The position numbers were made by a program, and so were the translations under genes. 64,000 nucleotides of DNA from Microgenomates group bacterium (GTDB lineage Bacteria; Patescibacteriota; Microgenomatia; UBA1406; GWC2-37-13): positions 193,223-257,222 of the forward strand of contig JARYMT010000001.1 in assembly GCA_029906985.1 (NCBI GenBank). The letters are read 5' to 3'. The notes below the pieces were generated by a model. The model was given only the letters and a program-made list of their open reading frames with translations. It ran no database searches and was not told where the DNA came from. Below, one piece after another: positions 21,995-29,279 of this stretch (position 1 is the first letter of the stretch; the number at the start of each line of letters is the position of its first letter).

Positions 21995-22267
21995 ATGAAA
22001 CACAATAGAACTGATGTTTTAATTGCTTTAAAAAAAGCAAAAAGTCTGCTTGAGAAAATTATTTCTATGGCGGAGGCAGATGCTTATTGTATTGATATTA
22101 TGCAGCAAAATTTAGCCGTGATTGGTTTGCTTCGTTCAGCTCATCAAAAATTAATGGAAGATCATTTGCAGTCTTGTTTTTCAGATGCTATTGGTTCAAA
22201 AAATAAACTCAAAAAGAAAAAAATGATTAATGAAATTTTAAAAGTAACAAAACTTTATAATAAATGA
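21995..22267 (+). CDS. csoR: CsoR-type copper-sensing repressor (DUF156)
   Basis: The 90-residue all-helical protein carries the Cu(I) ligands of CsoR: C32 (DAYCIDIMQQ), H57 and C61 (DHLQSCF). The helix before C32 and the QNLAVIGLLRSAHQKLMEDHL segment are family hallmarks. It represses its own operon until Cu(I) binds. It heads a copper operon; its TGA stop overlaps the copA start (ATGA type overlap, 22264-22267), giving translational coupling. The start codon directly follows a heptamer array. Confidence 0.93.
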   Translation: MKHNRTDVLIALKKAKSLLEKIISMAEADAYCIDIMQQNLAVIGLLRSAHQKLMEDHLQSCFSDAIGSKNKLKKKKMINEILKVTKLYNK

Positions 22268-22980
22268 TAAAAAAAGCTTTTGCTATAAACGGAATGCATT
22301 GTGCGTCTTGTGTTTATGTTAATGAGCAGGCTTTAAAAAAAATTCCTGGAGTGATTGATGCGGTAGTTAATTTAGCCAATAGTAAAGCAACAATTATTGC
22401 TAAAAGAGAAATTGATTTTGATCAGATTAAAAAAGCAGTTGAGAATGTTGGTTATCAAGTGATCTTTGAAGAAGAAAAAGATGAGGATTTAGAAGATAAA
22501 ATCAAAAAAGAAAAAGAAAAAGAATTAAAAAAGTTAAAAACTAAAAGTTTTATTAGCTTATTTTTTGTTTTTTTTCTTGTTTGGGCGACTTTTCCATATT
22601 TATCAAGTACATCACCTACAATTTTTAAAAATTTTTATTTTCAATTTATTTCTGCTTCAATTGTTCAGTTCTGGGTGGGAGGAGAGTTTTATAAAAATAC
22701 AATTTCAGCTTTAAAACATCGACAGGCAAATATGGATACTTTAGTGGTTTTAGGAACAACCGTGGCTTATATTTATTCAACCATTTTAGTTTTTTTTCCA
22801 AAATTATTTTTAGGGTTAAAAACTGAGCTTACGCTATATTTTGATGTGTCGGTCGTGATTATTGCTTTGGTTTTTTTAGGGAGGTATTTAGAAGCAAAAG
22901 CAAAAACAAAGACTAATGAAGCGTTAAAAAAATTAATGGAACTGCAGGCAAAAGAAGCTAATTTGATAATTAAAAATTAA
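22264..22980 (+). CDS. copA: Copper P1B-type ATPase, N-terminal part (split gene)
   Basis: The 238-residue segment holds an HMA metal-binding domain (GMHCASC, C13 and C16; about 1-70) and the first four membrane helices (about 92-212), ending in the LMELQAKEANLIIKN sequence that normally continues into the actuator domain. A TAA in the first unit of a heptamer array stops it. The rest of the ATPase (actuator, CPC, phosphorylation and ATP domains) is encoded from 23063 in a different frame. Without that part this product is inactive; co-translated halves might still assemble. Pseudogene status is possible. Confidence 0.88.
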   Translation: MIKKAFAINGMHCASCVYVNEQALKKIPGVIDAVVNLANSKATIIAKREIDFDQIKKAVENVGYQVIFEEEKDEDLEDKIKKEKEKELKKLKTKSFISLFFVFFLVWATFPYLSSTSPTIFKNFYFQFISASIVQFWVGGEFYKNTISALKHRQANMDTLVVLGTTVAYIYSTILVFFPKLFLGLKTELTLYFDVSVVIIALVFLGRYLEAKAKTKTNEALKKLMELQAKEANLIIKN

Positions 22981-23028
22981 AAATCAAAAGTTAAAAATTG
23001 CAGTTAAAAATTTAAAATTAAAAAATTT
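22973..23028. repeat. Heptamer array splitting copA
   Basis: Eight 7-mers in register: AAAATTA, AAAATCA, AAAGTTA, AAAATTG, CAGTTAA, AAATTTA, AAATTAA, AAAATTT. The stop of the N-terminal half lies in the first unit. Confidence 0.85.
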
Positions 23029-23062
23029 TTGGTTTTATGTTGTGGTTTTGAGTTTAGTATTT

Positions 23063-24655
23063 ATGAAAGAAATAAAAATTCCGATTGAAAAAATAAAGGT
23101 GGGTGATTTGATTAAGGTTTATCCAGGTGAAAAAATTCCAGTTGATGGAGTGGTGGTTGAAGGCGAATCAACTATTGATGAGTCAACGATAACAGGTGAG
23201 AGCATGCCTGTTTTTAAGAAAAAAGGCGATCAAGTTATTGGATCAACCTTAAATCAAGACGGAATTTTAATATTTAAGGCAACTAAAGTTGGAAAAGAAA
23301 CGATGCTTTCACAAATCATAAAATTGGTTGAAGAAGCCCAAGCGAGTAAAGCGCCAATACAAAGATTAGCTGATATTGTTTCTTCTTTTTTTGTACCAAT
23401 AGTTTTAATTTTGGCGATTTTTACTTTTATATATTGGTATTTTTTTGCCAAAGTTTTAATATCGCAGGCAGTTTTAAATATGATTGCTGTTTTGATTGTT
23501 GCTTGTCCTTGTGCCATGGGTTTAGCTACGCCAACAGCAATAATGGTGGCAACTGGAAAAGCAGCTGAAAATGGGATTTTGGTTAAAGATGCCGAAAGTT
23601 TGGAGATTTTGCATAAAGTTAACACCATCGTTTTTGACAAAACTGGAACTTTAACTAAAGGAAAAATTAGCATTATTGAAATTATTGACTCGGCAACGCA
23701 AATTTTATCGCGACGAGAGTCTCACCCCGACAGAATTGTCGGGGTCCCCTCGAAAGCGAAAAATTTGCTTTTGCCTCGTCAAAAGATTATTCAAATAGCT
23801 TCATCCTTAGAAAATCATTCAAAACACCCTATTGCTCAAGCTATTGTTAATAAAGCTAAGGAGGAAAATATTGAGTTTCTGCTGGTTAAAAAATTTAAAA
23901 ACTTGGTTGGTCAAGGAGTTGAGGGAGAAATTAATGGAAAAAAAGTTTATGTGGGCAAATTATTAAATGAAAACGATGAGCTTCAAGAGGCAAAAAGATT
24001 TAAAAATGAAGGTAAAACTGTGGTTTATATTTATGAGGAAAAAATAATTTTAGGAGCAATTGTGATCGCTGATATCTTAAAAGAGGAAGCAAAAGAGGTA
24101 GTTGAACAGTTAAAAAATATGAAAATTATGGTTTATATGATCACAGGAGATAATAAACAAACCGCTTTATCAATTGGAAAACAAGCCGGAGTTGATGACA
24201 AAAATATTTTTTATGAAGTTTTACCCCAAGAAAAAGAGGAAATTGTTAAAAATTTAAAATTAAAATTTAAAAATTGTGTTTTAGCTTTTGTTGGTGATGG
24301 GATAAATGATGCGCCGGCTTTGGCCGCTTGCGATGTAGGTATTGCTTTATCAACAGGCTCTGATATTGCTATTGAAACTGCCAGCATCTCAATAGTTAAT
24401 AAAAATTTAAAAACAATTTTAAAAGCAATAAATTTATCAAAAAAAACAATTTTTACAATTTATACCAATTTATTTTGGGCATTTGTATATAATGTAATTT
24501 TAATCCCGGTAGCAATGATGGGAAAAATCAATCCAATGCTTGCTTCGGCAGCTATGGGATTATCGAGCGTATCAGTAGTTACCAATTCACTTTTACTTAA
24601 AAATCACTTTTACTTAAAAAAACTAAAATATGAAACAAAAAAAACTGAAAATTAA
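23063..24655 (+). CDS. copA: Copper P1B-type ATPase, C-terminal part (split gene)
   Basis: From the ATG at 23063 (530 residues) the protein has the actuator domain with TGES (44-47), the intramembrane metal motif ACPCAMGLATP (CPC), the phosphorylation motif DKTGTLTKG (Asp about 191), HSKHP (the P1B-type HP motif) and GDGINDAPALA. It carries everything of CopA except the HMA domain and first helices, which lie in the preceding frame. An upstream GTG at 23042 is in the non-coding array margin. Between the DKTGT motif and the nucleotide-binding helix an extra ~30 residues are encoded by a palindromic element (see the repeat at 23725). The end overlaps the next gene by 26 nt. Confidence 0.9.
   Translation: MKEIKIPIEKIKVGDLIKVYPGEKIPVDGVVVEGESTIDESTITGESMPVFKKKGDQVIGSTLNQDGILIFKATKVGKETMLSQIIKLVEEAQASKAPIQRLADIVSSFFVPIVLILAIFTFIYWYFFAKVLISQAVLNMIAVLIVACPCAMGLATPTAIMVATGKAAENGILVKDAESLEILHKVNTIVFDKTGTLTKGKISIIEIIDSATQILSRRESHPDRIVGVPSKAKNLLLPRQKIIQIASSLENHSKHPIAQAIVNKAKEENIEFLLVKKFKNLVGQGVEGEINGKKVYVGKLLNENDELQEAKRFKNEGKTVVYIYEEKIILGAIVIADILKEEAKEVVEQLKNMKIMVYMITGDNKQTALSIGKQAGVDDKNIFYEVLPQEKEEIVKNLKLKFKNCVLAFVGDGINDAPALAACDVGIALSTGSDIAIETASISIVNKNLKTILKAINLSKKTIFTIYTNLFWAFVYNVILIPVAMMGKINPMLASAAMGLSSVSVVTNSLLLKNHFYLKKLKYETKKTEN
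23725..23744. repeat. Hairpin family B, copy inside copA
   Basis: CCCCGACAGAATTGTCGGGG: 8-bp arms, 4-nt loop. Flanking CTCA and GTCC resemble the element at 43853 (TCATCCCGAAG...CTTCGGGGTCC). Further inverted repeats (GACGAG 23712-23717 with CTCGTC near 23777) suggest a ~90-bp insertion. The reading frame stays open through it. Confidence 0.75.
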
Positions 24656-25922
24656 AGGGATGCATTGTCCATCATGTAATATCTTGGTAAAGGATAAGTT
24701 TTCACAAGTTAAAAATATTACAAAAATTATTGCTGATTACAAAACCCAAGAGGCAAAGATCTTTTATCAGGGTGATATTTCAACTGAAAAACTTAATCAA
24801 TTGATTAAACCATACGGTTATATGATTGTTGATGAGGTAAAAGAGGATAAAAATTTTTTAAATAATATTTTTGAATTTTTAGCGATTTCAACAATTTTAT
24901 TTTTTGGTTATTTGATTTTGAAAGAGTTTAATTTATGGCCATCTTTTTCTTATTCTAATTTGTCCTTGCCTTTAGTATTTATTTTAGGTCTGATTGCTTC
25001 AACCTCAACCTGTATGGCAACTGCTGGAGCTTTGTATTTATCGATTGCTAAAAGCAAAAACGATTGGCCAACAGCATTAAGTTTTAATACTGGTCGAGTT
25101 TTATCGTATTTTTTATTTGGAGTAATTTTTGGATTTTTAGGTAAAACAATTTCAACCTCTGTATATTTAGGAGGAATGTTAACTTTAATTATTGCTCTTT
25201 TAATGATTTTTTTAGGTCTTGATATGGCAGGAATTTTTTCTTGGCAAAAATATTTTGGTTTAAATACTGGAAGAATTTTTGAATTTTTTGATGAAAAATT
25301 AAAAAAATATCCTCGGAAAATGCCTTTTTTTCTTGGATTGATAACCTATTTTTTACCATGCGGTTTTACTCAATCTGTTCAAGTTTATGTAATGAGTTTA
25401 GCTAATCCTTGGTTGTCAGGAGTTTATATGATGGTTTTTGCAATAGGAACAGTCCCTCTTTTAATGATGATAAATTTGGCTTTAAATATAAGACAATCTA
25501 ATTTTTATCAATATTTTCTAAAAATTATGGGAGTGTTGGTTTTTTTTGTCGGCGCTTCATATATTTTTAATTTTTTAACTCTTTTTAATCTAAATTATTT
25601 TGAGAGAATATTTTCAAAAAATAGTTTAAAAATAAAAAATGTTGAGATGCTAGATGGAAAACAAATAATAAAGATGGATGTTGTTTCATCTGGTTACCAA
25701 CCAAATAGCTTTGCTGTTAAAAAAAATGTTCCAGTTAAATGGATTGTCAATGGAGTTAATGTTTTGGGGTGTCAAGAGTATTTTGTTGTGCCATCATTGG
25801 GTATTTCTCAAGCGCTAAAGGAAGGAGAGAATATTTTTGAGTTTACTGCAAAAGATGATAAGCCAATTTATTTTTCTTGCGGAATGGGAATGTATCGGGG
25901 TAAAATAGAAGTAATAAATTAA
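24630..25922 (+). CDS. HMA - sulfite-exporter-like (SafE) - cupredoxin fusion protein
   Basis: The 430-residue protein has three parts: an HMA domain (GMHCPSC, C13 and C16; 1-70), a six-helix TauE/SafE/DsbD-like membrane domain (about 80-325) with STSTCMATAGALYLS and YFLPCGFTQSVQVYVMSLANP, and a C-terminal cupredoxin-like domain (about 335-430) containing GCQEYFVV and SCGMGMYRG (Cys and Met ligands). Such a layout suits moving Cu(I) or electrons across the membrane. It overlaps copA by 26 nt and is in the CsoR operon, so a copper-handling role is likely. Confidence 0.88.
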   Translation: MKQKKLKIKGMHCPSCNILVKDKFSQVKNITKIIADYKTQEAKIFYQGDISTEKLNQLIKPYGYMIVDEVKEDKNFLNNIFEFLAISTILFFGYLILKEFNLWPSFSYSNLSLPLVFILGLIASTSTCMATAGALYLSIAKSKNDWPTALSFNTGRVLSYFLFGVIFGFLGKTISTSVYLGGMLTLIIALLMIFLGLDMAGIFSWQKYFGLNTGRIFEFFDEKLKKYPRKMPFFLGLITYFLPCGFTQSVQVYVMSLANPWLSGVYMMVFAIGTVPLLMMINLALNIRQSNFYQYFLKIMGVLVFFVGASYIFNFLTLFNLNYFERIFSKNSLKIKNVEMLDGKQIIKMDVVSSGYQPNSFAVKKNVPVKWIVNGVNVLGCQEYFVVPSLGISQALKEGENIFEFTAKDDKPIYFSCGMGMYRGKIEVIN

Positions 25923-25941
25923 ATTAGAAATTTAAAATCAT
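25921..25941. repeat. Heptamer array filling the gap before the thioredoxin-like gene
   Basis: Three 7-mers, AAATTAG, AAATTTA, AAATCAT, occupy almost exactly the space between the stop at 25922 and the ATG at 25943. Confidence 0.6.
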
Positions 25942-25942
25942 T

Positions 25943-26338
25943 ATGGAAAAAAAACTTGTTGCAACAATTTCAGTTTTATCAGTGATTATATTAGTTTTGG
26001 GATATATAATTTTTGGCTCGCAAAGTAAAAAAACTACTCAAATAAAAATACCTTCAAAAAACGAGATTGTTTTTTATTATGGAGCTACTTGTCCTCATTG
26101 TAAGGATGTTGAGGAATGGATGAAAAAAAATAAGGTTGAGGAGAAAATAAAAATTGAAAAAAAAGAAGTTTATGAAAATCAAAACAATGCTCAAGAATTG
26201 GAACAAGTGGCTGAAGCTTGTGGTTTAGACACTTCATCAATTGGTGTACCTTTGTTATGGGCTGATGGAAAATGTTATATTGGGACGCCGGATGTTGAAA
26301 AAATATTAGCAGAAAAAATTAATTTAAAAGCTAATTAA
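25943..26338 (+). CDS. Membrane-anchored thioredoxin-like protein
   Basis: The 131-residue protein has one N-terminal membrane helix (about 6-24), then a thioredoxin/glutaredoxin-like domain with GATCPHCKDVEEWM (C50, C53) and a cis-Pro loop GVPLLWADGKCYIG. A third Cys (in GKCYIG) may bind metal. It probably faces the cell exterior and exchanges disulfides with the neighbouring membrane proteins of the copper operon. It follows the HMA-SafE-cupredoxin gene by 20 nt. Confidence 0.88.
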   Translation: MEKKLVATISVLSVIILVLGYIIFGSQSKKTTQIKIPSKNEIVFYYGATCPHCKDVEEWMKKNKVEEKIKIEKKEVYENQNNAQELEQVAEACGLDTSSIGVPLLWADGKCYIGTPDVEKILAEKINLKAN

Positions 26339-26339
26339 A

Positions 26340-26861
26340 ATGTCAATTAAAAAAACAATTAAGTCAATTTTTATAATCTTTTTAAGCTATTTATTTTCAG
26401 CGGTTTTTAATAAATCTTTTGCTGTCTGCCCGTTGTGTACCGTGGCAGTTGGCGCCGGTGTTGGTTTATGTCGGTATTTAGGAATTGATGATACAATATC
26501 TGGAGTTTGGATTGGGGGGCTAATAGTTTCAATGGGTTTTTGGCTGGCGGATTTTTTAGGAAAGAAAAAAATAAAAATTAATTTTCTTGAATTTTGGTCA
26601 ATTTTATTAATGTTTTTATTAATTTACCCATTTTTGTACTGGGGAAAACTAATTGGTATTGCCGGTAATACTTTATGGGGAATAGATAAATTAGTTTTGG
26701 GAGTTATTAGCGGATCTGTGGTGTTTTTTTTGGCGGTCTTCACTGATAAATTTTTGCGAAAAAAAAATAATAATAAGGTTTATATTTATTATCAAAAAGT
26801 GATTATTCCTCTTTTATATTTGGCGCTTTTAAGTTTAATATTTTATGAAATAACTTGTTAA
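26340..26861 (+). CDS. Polytopic membrane protein with conserved CPLC motif
   Basis: The 173-residue protein has an N-terminal helix (about 8-24), then AVCPLCTVAVGAGVGLCRYLGIDD (C30, C33, C44) and three or four further helices. The CXXC directly after the first helix and the following Gly-rich GAGVGLCR motif suggest a membrane thiol-redox or metal-binding protein; I do not know an experimentally described relative. The start is 1 nt after the thioredoxin-like gene, so it is co-expressed with it in the copper operon. Confidence 0.8.
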   Translation: MSIKKTIKSIFIIFLSYLFSAVFNKSFAVCPLCTVAVGAGVGLCRYLGIDDTISGVWIGGLIVSMGFWLADFLGKKKIKINFLEFWSILLMFLLIYPFLYWGKLIGIAGNTLWGIDKLVLGVISGSVVFFLAVFTDKFLRKKNNNKVYIYYQKVIIPLLYLALLSLIFYEITC

Positions 26862-26900
26862 AAATTGGTTAATCAATAATTATCAGTTTTAAAATTATTT

Positions 26901-27446
26901 ATGAAAAATTTAGATATCAATCAATTTTTGGAAAAAATTAAAAAAATGGAAAAAGGAGAGAGGCTTGATTTATCATCTGATGAGGATTTGTCAATTGGAA
27001 TAATGAATTTGATCTCAATGGAAGAGCATTTTTTCTTTACTTATAACAAAACCGGTGATGAGAAATATCTGGATTTATTGAATGAAGTTAGGGAAATGAG
27101 AAAAAGCTTACTAAAAATGATTATTAAGGATTATGAGGGGGAGGTCTGGTGTATTTCCAAACATTTGCTAGCAGCTTCAATGAGATTAATGGAGGTGGGA
27201 ACAAAGTATTTAACTAAAGGTGATAAAAAAAACGCTTCTGATTTATTTAAAAAATCTTACCAGTTATATAGTTTGTTTTGGGGTTTAAATTTAGGTGTTG
27301 TAAAAGCAAATGATGTTAAACAAAGTCAAAAAGATGAGGTTAAATTTATCACTGATGATGAAAAACCAAAAGTTAAAAATAAAGCTTCAATTTTTGAGAA
27401 ATTAGGGGAGTTAGTAAAAAAAGCGATTGATTGCTGTCGGGAATGA
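26901..27446 (+). CDS. Hypothetical helical protein, probable copper-operon member
   Basis: The 181-residue cytoplasmic protein is largely alpha-helical. It resembles a small helical-bundle scaffold, with AVWCIS-type Cys (in EVWCISKHLLAASMRL) and a terminal pair DCCRE. I do not recognise the family. It starts 39 nt after the membrane protein and has no promoter of its own that I can see, so it may be the last gene of the copper operon. The fluoride riboswitch begins ~33 nt after its stop. Confidence 0.75.
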   Translation: MKNLDINQFLEKIKKMEKGERLDLSSDEDLSIGIMNLISMEEHFFFTYNKTGDEKYLDLLNEVREMRKSLLKMIIKDYEGEVWCISKHLLAASMRLMEVGTKYLTKGDKKNASDLFKKSYQLYSLFWGLNLGVVKANDVKQSQKDEVKFITDDEKPKVKNKASIFEKLGELVKKAIDCCRE

Positions 27447-27467
27447 TTTTTTATTATTCAAATCTGC

Positions 27468-27473
27468 TATAAT
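27468..27473 (+). promoter_or_regulatory. -10 box ahead of the fluoride riboswitch
   Basis: TATAAT at 27468-27473 places the transcription start near 27480, at the 5' edge of the aptamer. I see no good -35 box at 16-18 nt. Confidence 0.5.
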
Positions 27474-27478
27474 TAATA

Positions 27479-27550
27479 AAAGCGATGAGGCTCGCTTAAT
27501 GTCCTTTTTAAAGGACTGATAGCTTCTACTTTATCAGTAGAAGCTTTTTT
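27479..27550 (+). promoter_or_regulatory. Fluoride riboswitch (crcB motif) with terminator platform
   Basis: AAGCG/CGCTT form the first stem, loop ATGAGGCT; GTCC/GGAC form the second stem; then CTGATAGCTTCTAC. The loop GAGGCT pairs with AGCTTC (27521-27526) in the crcB-motif pseudoknot, and the GATGAGGC and CTGAT elements match the known fluoride aptamer. The same AGCTTCTAC also forms the 5' arm of a terminator, so fluoride binding should favour read-through (ON switch). Confidence 0.9.
27521..27550 (+). terminator. Riboswitch-controlled intrinsic terminator
   Basis: AGCTTCTAC (27521-27529), then TTTATCA, GTAGAAGCT and a run of T ending at 27550. The 5' arm is shared with the aptamer pseudoknot, making the two structures mutually exclusive. 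Confidence 0.88.
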
Positions 27551-27552
27551 AT

Positions 27553-28323
27553 ATGAATCTGAAAAAAATTGAAAAAAATTTAGATATTTTAATCGACCTA
27601 CCTTTAATAAAAGAGCATAAAAACCTCTTTTATCAATTCAATTTAATTAAGGAGAAATTAGGAAACAGGGAATTACAAATAGTAGTTTTAGGACAGTTTA
27701 AACGAGGTAAAACTAGTCTTATAAATTCTTTAATTGGGAAAAAATTATTACCAACGTCAGTGGTTCCCTTAACTTCTGTGATTACCATACTCAAATATGG
27801 ACAAAAATCAAAAGCTTTAGTTAAGTTTTTAGATGGTAGAAATGTCTTAATTGAAATAAAAGATTTAGAAAATTATATTACCGAAGAAAAAAATCCTAAA
27901 AATATTAAAAAAGTAGACAAAGTTATCATCGAATATCCTTCTTTGTATTTAAAAGACGGGGTTCAAATTATAGACACACCGGGGGTAGGATCGGTTTATG
28001 AACACAATACAGATGTCGCTTATCAGTTTGTTCCTCAGGCGGATGTAGGGATATTTGTTGTCACTGCTGATCCTCCGATTAGCGAAGCCGAGCTTTCTTT
28101 TTTATCATCAATAAAAAATCATTTGGGGAAAATTATTTTTATTCAAAACAAAATTGATCAGGTTGAAAAAAAAGATTGGGGGGAATCATTGGAGTTTACA
28201 AAAAAAATTATTAAAGAAAAACTAAAAATCAAAAAGCTAAAAATCTATCCTTTATCTTCAAAAACGGCTATCGATGGAAAACTAAACAACGATAAAAAAA
28301 ATTACAAGAAAGCGGATTTTTAG
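27553..28323 (+). CDS. Dynamin-like GTPase, N-terminal GTPase part (frameshifted gene)
   Basis: The 256-residue frame is a dynamin-superfamily GTPase domain: P-loop GQFKRGKTS (47-55), switch I LPTSVVPLTSV (66-76), G3 DTPGVGS (141-147) and G4 NKID (199-202). The ATG is 2 nt after the riboswitch terminator T-run, leaving no room for a separate ribosome site. The frame ends with a TAG shortly after an A8 run (28294-28301). In the -1 frame the sequence continues LQESGFLEFEKTLHNFLMKEKEQ, joining the second frame (28353-29279) into one ~570-residue protein. Bacterial dynamins remodel or tether membranes. Confidence 0.88.
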   Translation: MNLKKIEKNLDILIDLPLIKEHKNLFYQFNLIKEKLGNRELQIVVLGQFKRGKTSLINSLIGKKLLPTSVVPLTSVITILKYGQKSKALVKFLDGRNVLIEIKDLENYITEEKNPKNIKKVDKVIIEYPSLYLKDGVQIIDTPGVGSVYEHNTDVAYQFVPQADVGIFVVTADPPISEAELSFLSSIKNHLGKIIFIQNKIDQVEKKDWGESLEFTKKIIKEKLKIKKLKIYPLSSKTAIDGKLNNDKKNYKKADF

Positions 28324-28352: not shown

Positions 28353-29279
28353 ATGAAAGAAAAAGAGCAAGCTTTAGTTGAGTCAATTTCTACCAAATTA
28401 AAATCTCTTATTAATCAACTAAAACTAATTATTCAATTAGAGATAAAAAGTTCACAAATGCCCCATTTAACCCTAAAAGAAAAATTACAAACTTTTAAAC
28501 AGGAATTAAAAATTATTAAACAACAAAAAGAAGACTCAGAATATATTCTTAGAGGAGAAACAGAAAAAATAGTCAAAGAGGGTTTAATCGAAGACATTGA
28601 TTTATTTAAAAAAAAGGAATTACCCAAAATGGTTTCAGATTTAGAGCAAATATATAAAAACAACCAAAAACTCAATGGCATTGAATTAGCAAAAAGATTT
28701 AATCTTTTTTTAGAAAATTCTATTAAAAAAAAATTTAATGATTGGCGAAAAGCTGAAGAAAAAAAACTTCAAAAATCATTAAAATTTATTTTAAACAGAT
28801 TTACCAAAAGCACGAATCAATCGATAGAAAAAATTATTAACCTTTCGGCTAACTTATTTGATATTTCTTTAGAAAAATTTACAACGGAATTAGAATTAGT
28901 AGAAGAACAAGAATTTAGATTCTCATTTGATGAAATTCAAGTCGAAATAGAAATATTTACTCCAATTTTTTCACGACTACCAAAATTTCTATCCCACCGC
29001 TTTCTCTATCAAAATATTAAAGAAAAAACTGCCGAAGAATTTGACAAACATTGTGGGCGGGTTAGATTTGATTTTCATCAGCGTCTGCTCAAAACAATCA
29101 ACGAATATCAAATTGAATTAGATAGGGTATTTGAAGAGATAATCTCCGAAATAGAAAAAGCAATAATAAAAGGGCTTAAATTAAAACAAAAAACTAAACA
29201 AGAAGCCGATGATTTTTTAAACAAACTTTACTACCAAGAAAAAACTCTCTTACAAATACAAAAGCAATTAACTTTATAA
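28353..29279 (+). CDS. Dynamin-like GTPase, C-terminal stalk part (frameshifted gene)
   Basis: The 308-residue frame is long alpha-helical and coiled-coil (for example TLKEKLQTFKQELKIIKQQKEDSE and the C-terminal TKQEADDFLNKLYYQEKTLLQIQKQ), as in the stalk of bacterial dynamin-like proteins. In the native protein it would begin at about 28302 in the -1 frame, right after the A8 run. If frameshifting does not occur, the ATG at 28353 could start a separate stalk fragment. The gene is followed by a convergent membrane protein gene 9 nt away. Confidence 0.85.
   Translation: MKEKEQALVESISTKLKSLINQLKLIIQLEIKSSQMPHLTLKEKLQTFKQELKIIKQQKEDSEYILRGETEKIVKEGLIEDIDLFKKKELPKMVSDLEQIYKNNQKLNGIELAKRFNLFLENSIKKKFNDWRKAEEKKLQKSLKFILNRFTKSTNQSIEKIINLSANLFDISLEKFTTELELVEEQEFRFSFDEIQVEIEIFTPIFSRLPKFLSHRFLYQNIKEKTAEEFDKHCGRVRFDFHQRLLKTINEYQIELDRVFEEIISEIEKAIIKGLKLKQKTKQEADDFLNKLYYQEKTLLQIQKQLTL

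Follow-up and report, generated by a model that had tools for sequence, protein, structure and literature searches.

In the genome of a Microgenomates group bacterium, a fluoride riboswitch lies directly ahead of a gene for a dynamin-like GTPase, and the reading that we favour, and consider likely, is that of a transcription switch, turned ON by fluoride, for a dynamin that maintains the membrane, set within a group of fluoride-tolerance genes. The parts of this reading carry different weight. That the dynamin gene is under fluoride regulation is very probable, and the comparison of related sequences supports it well; membrane maintenance as the role of the protein is a proposal suggested by its protein type, which we would hesitate to call probable. 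The stretch of DNA analysed, referred to as the window, comprises 64,000 nucleotides and is part of a 299 kb contig in a draft genome of 953 kb that is 98% complete. The features discussed are collected in Table 1.

Table 1. Features of the riboswitch-dynamin unit in the window, and of associated loci in related genomes (L numbers)
Feature	Position	Strand	Basis
Extended -10 promoter TGCTATAAT	27465..27473	+	sequence; element shared with related aptamers
Fluoride riboswitch aptamer (crcB motif, RF01734)	27472..27535	+	cmscan 32.9 bits, model 1-64
Stem P1	27480-27484 with 27493-27497	+	fold; covariation in 11 aptamers
Pseudoknot strand 1, GAGGCT, loop of P1	27487..27492	+	pairs with 27521-27526 (six pairs)
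Stem P3	GTCCTT 27501-27506 with AAGGAC 27511-27516	+	fold; RF01734 alignment
Pseudoknot strand 2, AGCTTC, also a terminator stem strand	27521..27526	+	RF01734 match, fold, covariation
Intrinsic terminator, 10-pair stem 27521-27545 and T-run	27521..27550	+	fold; independent terminator call
Dynamin-like GTPase gene, first part (GTPase domain)	27553..28323	+	Dynamin_N (PF00350) 109 bits; 62% identity to N-terminal half of intact G314 ortholog
A8 tract, reading frame lost (frameshift)	28294..28301	+	real and assembly error both possible
Second part of the dynamin-like GTPase gene (helices of stalk and tip), other frame	28353..29279	+	47% identity over 286 aa to C-terminal half of G314 ortholog
EYxHHF membrane protein	L015 14881-15096; L012 and L014; L006 2776-3000; L023 1000-1227	reverse (L012, L014)	
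Fluoride aptamer ahead of prenyltransferase-toroid gene	L013 1594-1646; L015 7507-7559	+ (L013)	

An earlier note on this DNA, made from the sequence alone, had described a complete crcB-motif aptamer with both stems and a GAGGCT/AGCTTC pseudoknot, and this description is borne out by covariance model, fold and covariation. A covariance-model search, which the note had suggested, gave a significant match to RF01734 over the full model length in the window (E 6.7e-8). Genome-wide (E 9.5e-8) no other match is credible, and those at L002-L005, with E 0.21 or worse, were put down to chance. The score lies 1.1 bits below the Rfam gathering score of 34, and a default Rfam scan at that threshold returned tRNAs only and missed the aptamer; E-value mode was required to see it. 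A class-specific aptamer model, R1, whose set contains the window sequence, gave 57.6 bits, and the aptamer region folds far better than its shuffles (z -5.2, none of 200 as good). Of the features by which RF01734 is recognized, P1, P3 and the pseudoknot from loop to 3' strand are all present, as is an expression platform exclusive with the aptamer, here the terminator. A target gene of a known fluoride-tolerance type, which is customary and not defining, is replaced by a dynamin. Since the family is defined by the aptamer, this unusual target does not exclude identity as a fluoride riboswitch, and we infer that the RNA encoded in the window would bind fluoride.

Covariation was assessed in 11 aptamers from the class to which the window genome belongs, aligned by sequence and not fitted to structure. 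Three of them precede dynamin genes and three pyrophosphatase genes, single aptamers precede crcB and the genes for an antiporter, a prenyltransferase-like protein and a small membrane protein, and one lies at a contig end. Across P1 and the pseudoknot together, standard pairs occupy 96.7% of cells, and five of the pairs show compensatory changes; the pseudoknot pairs alone are held in 98.5%, again with such changes. When the pairing was slid along the alignment as a control, 32-60% of cells were paired.

The way in which the switch would operate follows from the shared use of one strand. The terminator reuses the second pseudoknot strand, as the earlier note had claimed, and is recovered by folding as well as by an independent terminator call at 27521-27545. 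Since AGCTTC is common to pseudoknot and terminator stem, the two structures are mutually exclusive, and fluoride should switch the gene ON. The extended -10 element puts the transcription start close to base one of the aptamer, and an element of the same form, TGnTAAAAT, is found 14-16 bases upstream of four other aptamers in the related set; the window promoter has a weak -35 and is absent from the list of a simple promoter scan. RNA polymerase would start at the aptamer, and the whole would form a single-gene unit under a fluoride-ON, transcription-terminating riboswitch. In fluoride riboswitches, binding of Mg-F stabilises the pseudoknot and prevents termination. In the absence of fluoride, the AGCTTC strand would thus be free to pair into the terminator, and transcription would halt just before the start codon, while with fluoride, present as the Mg-F complex, the strand would be held in the pseudoknot, the terminator blocked and the dynamin made.

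The dynamin gene starts directly behind the T-run of the terminator, and the product of its first part carries the GTPase motifs G1, G3 and G4 (P-loop GQFKRGKTS, DTPG and NKID). As the gene after the dynamin lies on the opposite strand, the dynamin is the only gene that the switch can control. The earlier note was therefore right to name a dynamin-superfamily GTPase as the next and only downstream gene, but the end that it gave, 28323, is not the true one: a frameshift in an A8 tract had been overlooked, and homology to the ortholog in a related genome, G314, picks up directly after this tract, so that the dynamin continues to 29279. The frame is thus broken in the window genome, whereas the gene is intact in G314 and in a third genome, G183. 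With its frame lost in a homopolymer and its orthologs intact, the window unit might be in decay, a working switch in front of a pseudogene. We consider this unlikely, though the least improbable of the alternatives, because both halves are clearly conserved without further stops, because one-base homopolymer errors are common in multi-contig drafts such as this genome, and because A8 tracts can be read through by slippage. The frameshift may be a draft error, a site of slippage or a real loss, and caution is called for in that the dynamin product of this particular genome may be broken. Directly upstream of the switch, at 22264-27446, there is an apparent cluster for a copper/heavy-metal P-type ATPase, which includes proteins with heavy-metal-binding domains (named by eye); for the last gene upstream of the switch (26901-27446), neither Pfam nor NCBIfam gave a match.

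Among proteins of solved structure, the closest in sequence are the Nostoc BDLP, the Campylobacter DLPs, IniA and the mitofusins. The predicted structure of the G314 ortholog (mean pLDDT 77, pTM 0.55, with low confidence in the tip region 435-477) consists of a GTPase domain and long stalk helices, and its best fold matches in the PDB are BDLP, IniA in second place, the Campylobacter DLP pair and SynDLP. Beyond the GTPase domain with its motifs, the helical stalk and dynamin fold expected of a bacterial dynamin-like protein are thus predicted on this model. No Pfam model covers the C-terminal half of this dynamin. An assignment to the LeoA/LeoBC anti-phage dynamins was rejected, since PADLOC gave only partial matches to LeoA models (57-63 bits), in a single gene without a partner.

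The class, presumably of the Candidate Phyla Radiation type, comprises numerous genera whose genomes mostly measure 0.7-1.5 Mb. Using the G314 protein as query, dynamin orthologs were found in three of the 373 class genomes searched (the window genome, G314 and G183), each from a different family, and in all three a fluoride riboswitch lies directly ahead of the dynamin start codon. The G314 ortholog had surfaced through the RNA search, with the aptamer (L013/L015) directly upstream of an intact dynamin of 574 aa, and the G183 ortholog through the full-length protein query, with aptamer and terminator directly upstream (53.1 bits with R1, whose set includes the G183 sequence). The GTPase fragment of the window as query yielded no ortholog in the family, the order or the sampled phylum, and no relative turned up among viral contigs. 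The terminators ahead of the class dynamins are intact. At the protein level, G314 and G183 are 52% identical over the full length, and identity in the GTPase domain is 60-62% across the orthologs, which indicates that the pairing is old enough to be kept by selection. The three could represent one transferred riboswitch-dynamin unit rather than three independent origins; a tree built from the GTPase domains of nine dynamins lacked resolution, and we do not use it as evidence. A class-wide search with RF01734 gave matches in three further genomes (E up to 1e-4), and among 72 genomes of the family to which the window belongs, only one other (G056) has a strong fluoride aptamer. Since the large RF01734 searches scored few candidates per genome, and missed the window aptamer, these counts of riboswitch-bearing genomes are lower bounds. 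One of the matches, L010 (E 2.9e-5), has no aptamer core at the matched site, lies in apparent ribosomal RNA sequence and was set aside as chance.

The other aptamers of the class show what surrounds the pair. Fluoride riboswitches lie upstream of inorganic pyrophosphatase in G314 (PF00719) and in G338, ahead of a Na+/H+ antiporter in G056, and ahead of a canonical crcB in G767. Pyrophosphatase and Na+/H+ antiporters are listed as established fluoride riboswitch genes in PMC11139923, and, being known targets, they support the reading of the class aptamers as fluoride switches. Of the further aptamers in G314, one stands ahead of a membrane protein of 71 aa that carries an EYxHHF motif, another before a prenyltransferase-toroid protein, whose gene is divergent to the riboswitch-dynamin unit. 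In G183, genes for an EYxHHF protein and a prenyltransferase-like protein are convergent with the dynamin. Models of the CrcB and CLC families found no match in the window genome, G183 and G314, all draft genomes (G183 81% complete).

The EYxHHF protein, of 67-75 aa, occurs beside fluoride riboswitch genes in G314, G338, G056 and G183, with an aptamer of its own once, and contig 3 of G338 (L012, L014) carries two near-identical riboswitch-pyrophosphatase-EYxHHF units a few kb apart. It has no NCBIfam match and no Pfam match above the cut-off, and is a candidate new fluoride-tolerance protein. The aptamer of the prenyltransferase-toroid gene lacks a terminator, and a hairpin covers the AGGAG adjoining the ATG; this switch may act on translation. 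Before the prenyltransferase-like gene of G183 (L023 60-126), there are a hairpin of terminator type and TCATTAGCTTCTAC, which together look like the 3' half of a fluoride switch. No aptamer was detected upstream of that gene, despite a terminator like those of the related set, and the element is a possible remnant of a fluoride switch.

On the favoured reading, the dynamin would maintain or repair the membrane during the entry of HF and the accompanying fall of the proton gradient, in cells in which no exporter was detected. One could also speculate, with considerable doubt, that in some bacteria with small genomes and no known exporters the riboswitch-induced dynamin, the EYxHHF protein and the prenyltransferase-like protein together constitute a system of fluoride tolerance that is based on the membrane and independent of export. 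A different role for the same regulation would be that the dynamin is itself sensitive to fluoride and is made in larger amounts to compensate for its inhibition, an explanation put forward for enolase and pyrophosphatase. Together with Mg or Al, fluoride imitates the gamma phosphate, and GTPases are thereby trapped with GDP in a transition-like state. Dynamin-family structures of this GDP-AlFx or transition-like type are among the fold matches, pyrophosphatase is under the same switch in two genomes, and overproduction of inhibited enzymes is given as an explanation for other riboswitch targets in PMC11139923. We nevertheless judge this role rather improbable, given that the dynamin is missing from nearly all related genomes, and so is not essential and behaves as an accessory stress gene, and that no other GTPase gene stands behind a switch among the loci examined.

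A link between a dynamin and fluoride genes is also found in another phylum. Among plasmid-borne relatives, the one that scores highest with the G314 dynamin is encoded on plasmid unnamed5 of the alphaproteobacterium Lichenicola cladoniae, where a fluoride island among transposases (L030 2061-11521) holds a Na+/H+ antiporter, a universal stress protein, crcB and the dynamin; the CrcB protein is fused to a Usp domain and stands under a strong fluoride riboswitch. As in our class, a related dynamin thus lies close to a fluoride riboswitch, here beside crcB, Usp and the antiporter. Unlike in our class, the riboswitch (59.7 bits) is on the strand of crcB and not on that of the dynamin, which is divergently oriented and shares no more than about 30-35% identity. 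The dynamin is here linked to fluoride genes separately from the class, in a single case. Two further plasmid dynamins, from Anabaena and Lysinibacillus, have no fluoride gene setting around them, and the fluoride riboswitch is absent from a near relative, 44% identical in the GTPase domain, that occurs in a Peptostreptococcaceae MAG.

These comparisons bear on a possibility raised in the earlier note, namely that a riboswitch which had lost its original gene was captured. The gene lost would have been that of an exporter, the dynamin behind the switch would be unrelated, and the pairing would have no function in fluoride stress. The dynamin is indeed sporadic in the class and frameshifted in the window genome, and fluoride riboswitches are themselves rare there, as far as lower-bound counts tell. 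However, in the related genomes, whose comparison the note had advised, no crcB or remnant of it lies between switch and dynamin, and the same pair recurs in two other families, which argues against a switch left behind by a lost exporter gene. Given that three families retain the pair, with proteins 52-62% identical and terminators that are still intact, and that a dynamin is linked to crcB in the alphaproteobacterial island, capture is highly improbable. That the window element is a degenerate aptamer, or senses a ligand other than fluoride, is scarcely credible, since, despite a score just under the gathering value, its match spans the whole RF01734 model and its invariant core is common to the class set, including a bona fide crcB switch and the pyrophosphatase switches.

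The switch is thus of a known kind, and the dynamin as its target is apparently new, judged from later reviews and from text searches of the open-licence literature. The latter, in agreement with the earlier note's view that a fluoride-controlled dynamin was unreported, contains no mention of a fluoride riboswitch with a dynamin, with the Candidate Phyla Radiation or with Patescibacteria, a mention in supplementary tables elsewhere being possible. The target types given in the accessible parts of PMC2864571, PMC7266159 and PMC11139923 include no dynamin. A riboswitch reveals the signal that its gene answers, and the present one would tie a bacterial dynamin to fluoride stress in three lineages, next to the separate crcB-linked case. 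To our knowledge, the physiological triggers of bacterial dynamins are mostly unknown. The pairing suggests a membrane arm of fluoride tolerance beside ion export, and makes fluoride a chemically simple inducer with which bacterial dynamin function could be probed.

Among known systems, the isoniazid-inducible iniBAC operon of mycobacteria offers a precedent for a stress-induced bacterial dynamin, IniA, its induction by cell-wall stress depending on a protein regulator. Both IniA and the class dynamin can be read as stress-type dynamins, but iniBAC uses a protein regulator and not an ion-sensing RNA. With the bacterial dynamin-like proteins at large (Nostoc BDLP, B. subtilis DynA, Campylobacter DLP1/2, IniA, SynDLP and LeoA), the class dynamin shares the GTPase domain, its motifs and the long helical stalk; it differs in being a single short protein of about 570 aa, neither paired nor fused, and in being riboswitch-controlled. 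For DynA of B. subtilis, which is of a related type, a role in membrane surveillance is reported, directed at phage and pore-forming agents (PMC8844932). With the known fluoride riboswitches, which precede crcB, CLC-F, Na+/H+ antiporter, pyrophosphatase and enolase genes, the window switch has the aptamer, the pseudoknot and the terminator logic in common, and it differs from them in controlling a dynamin-like GTPase.
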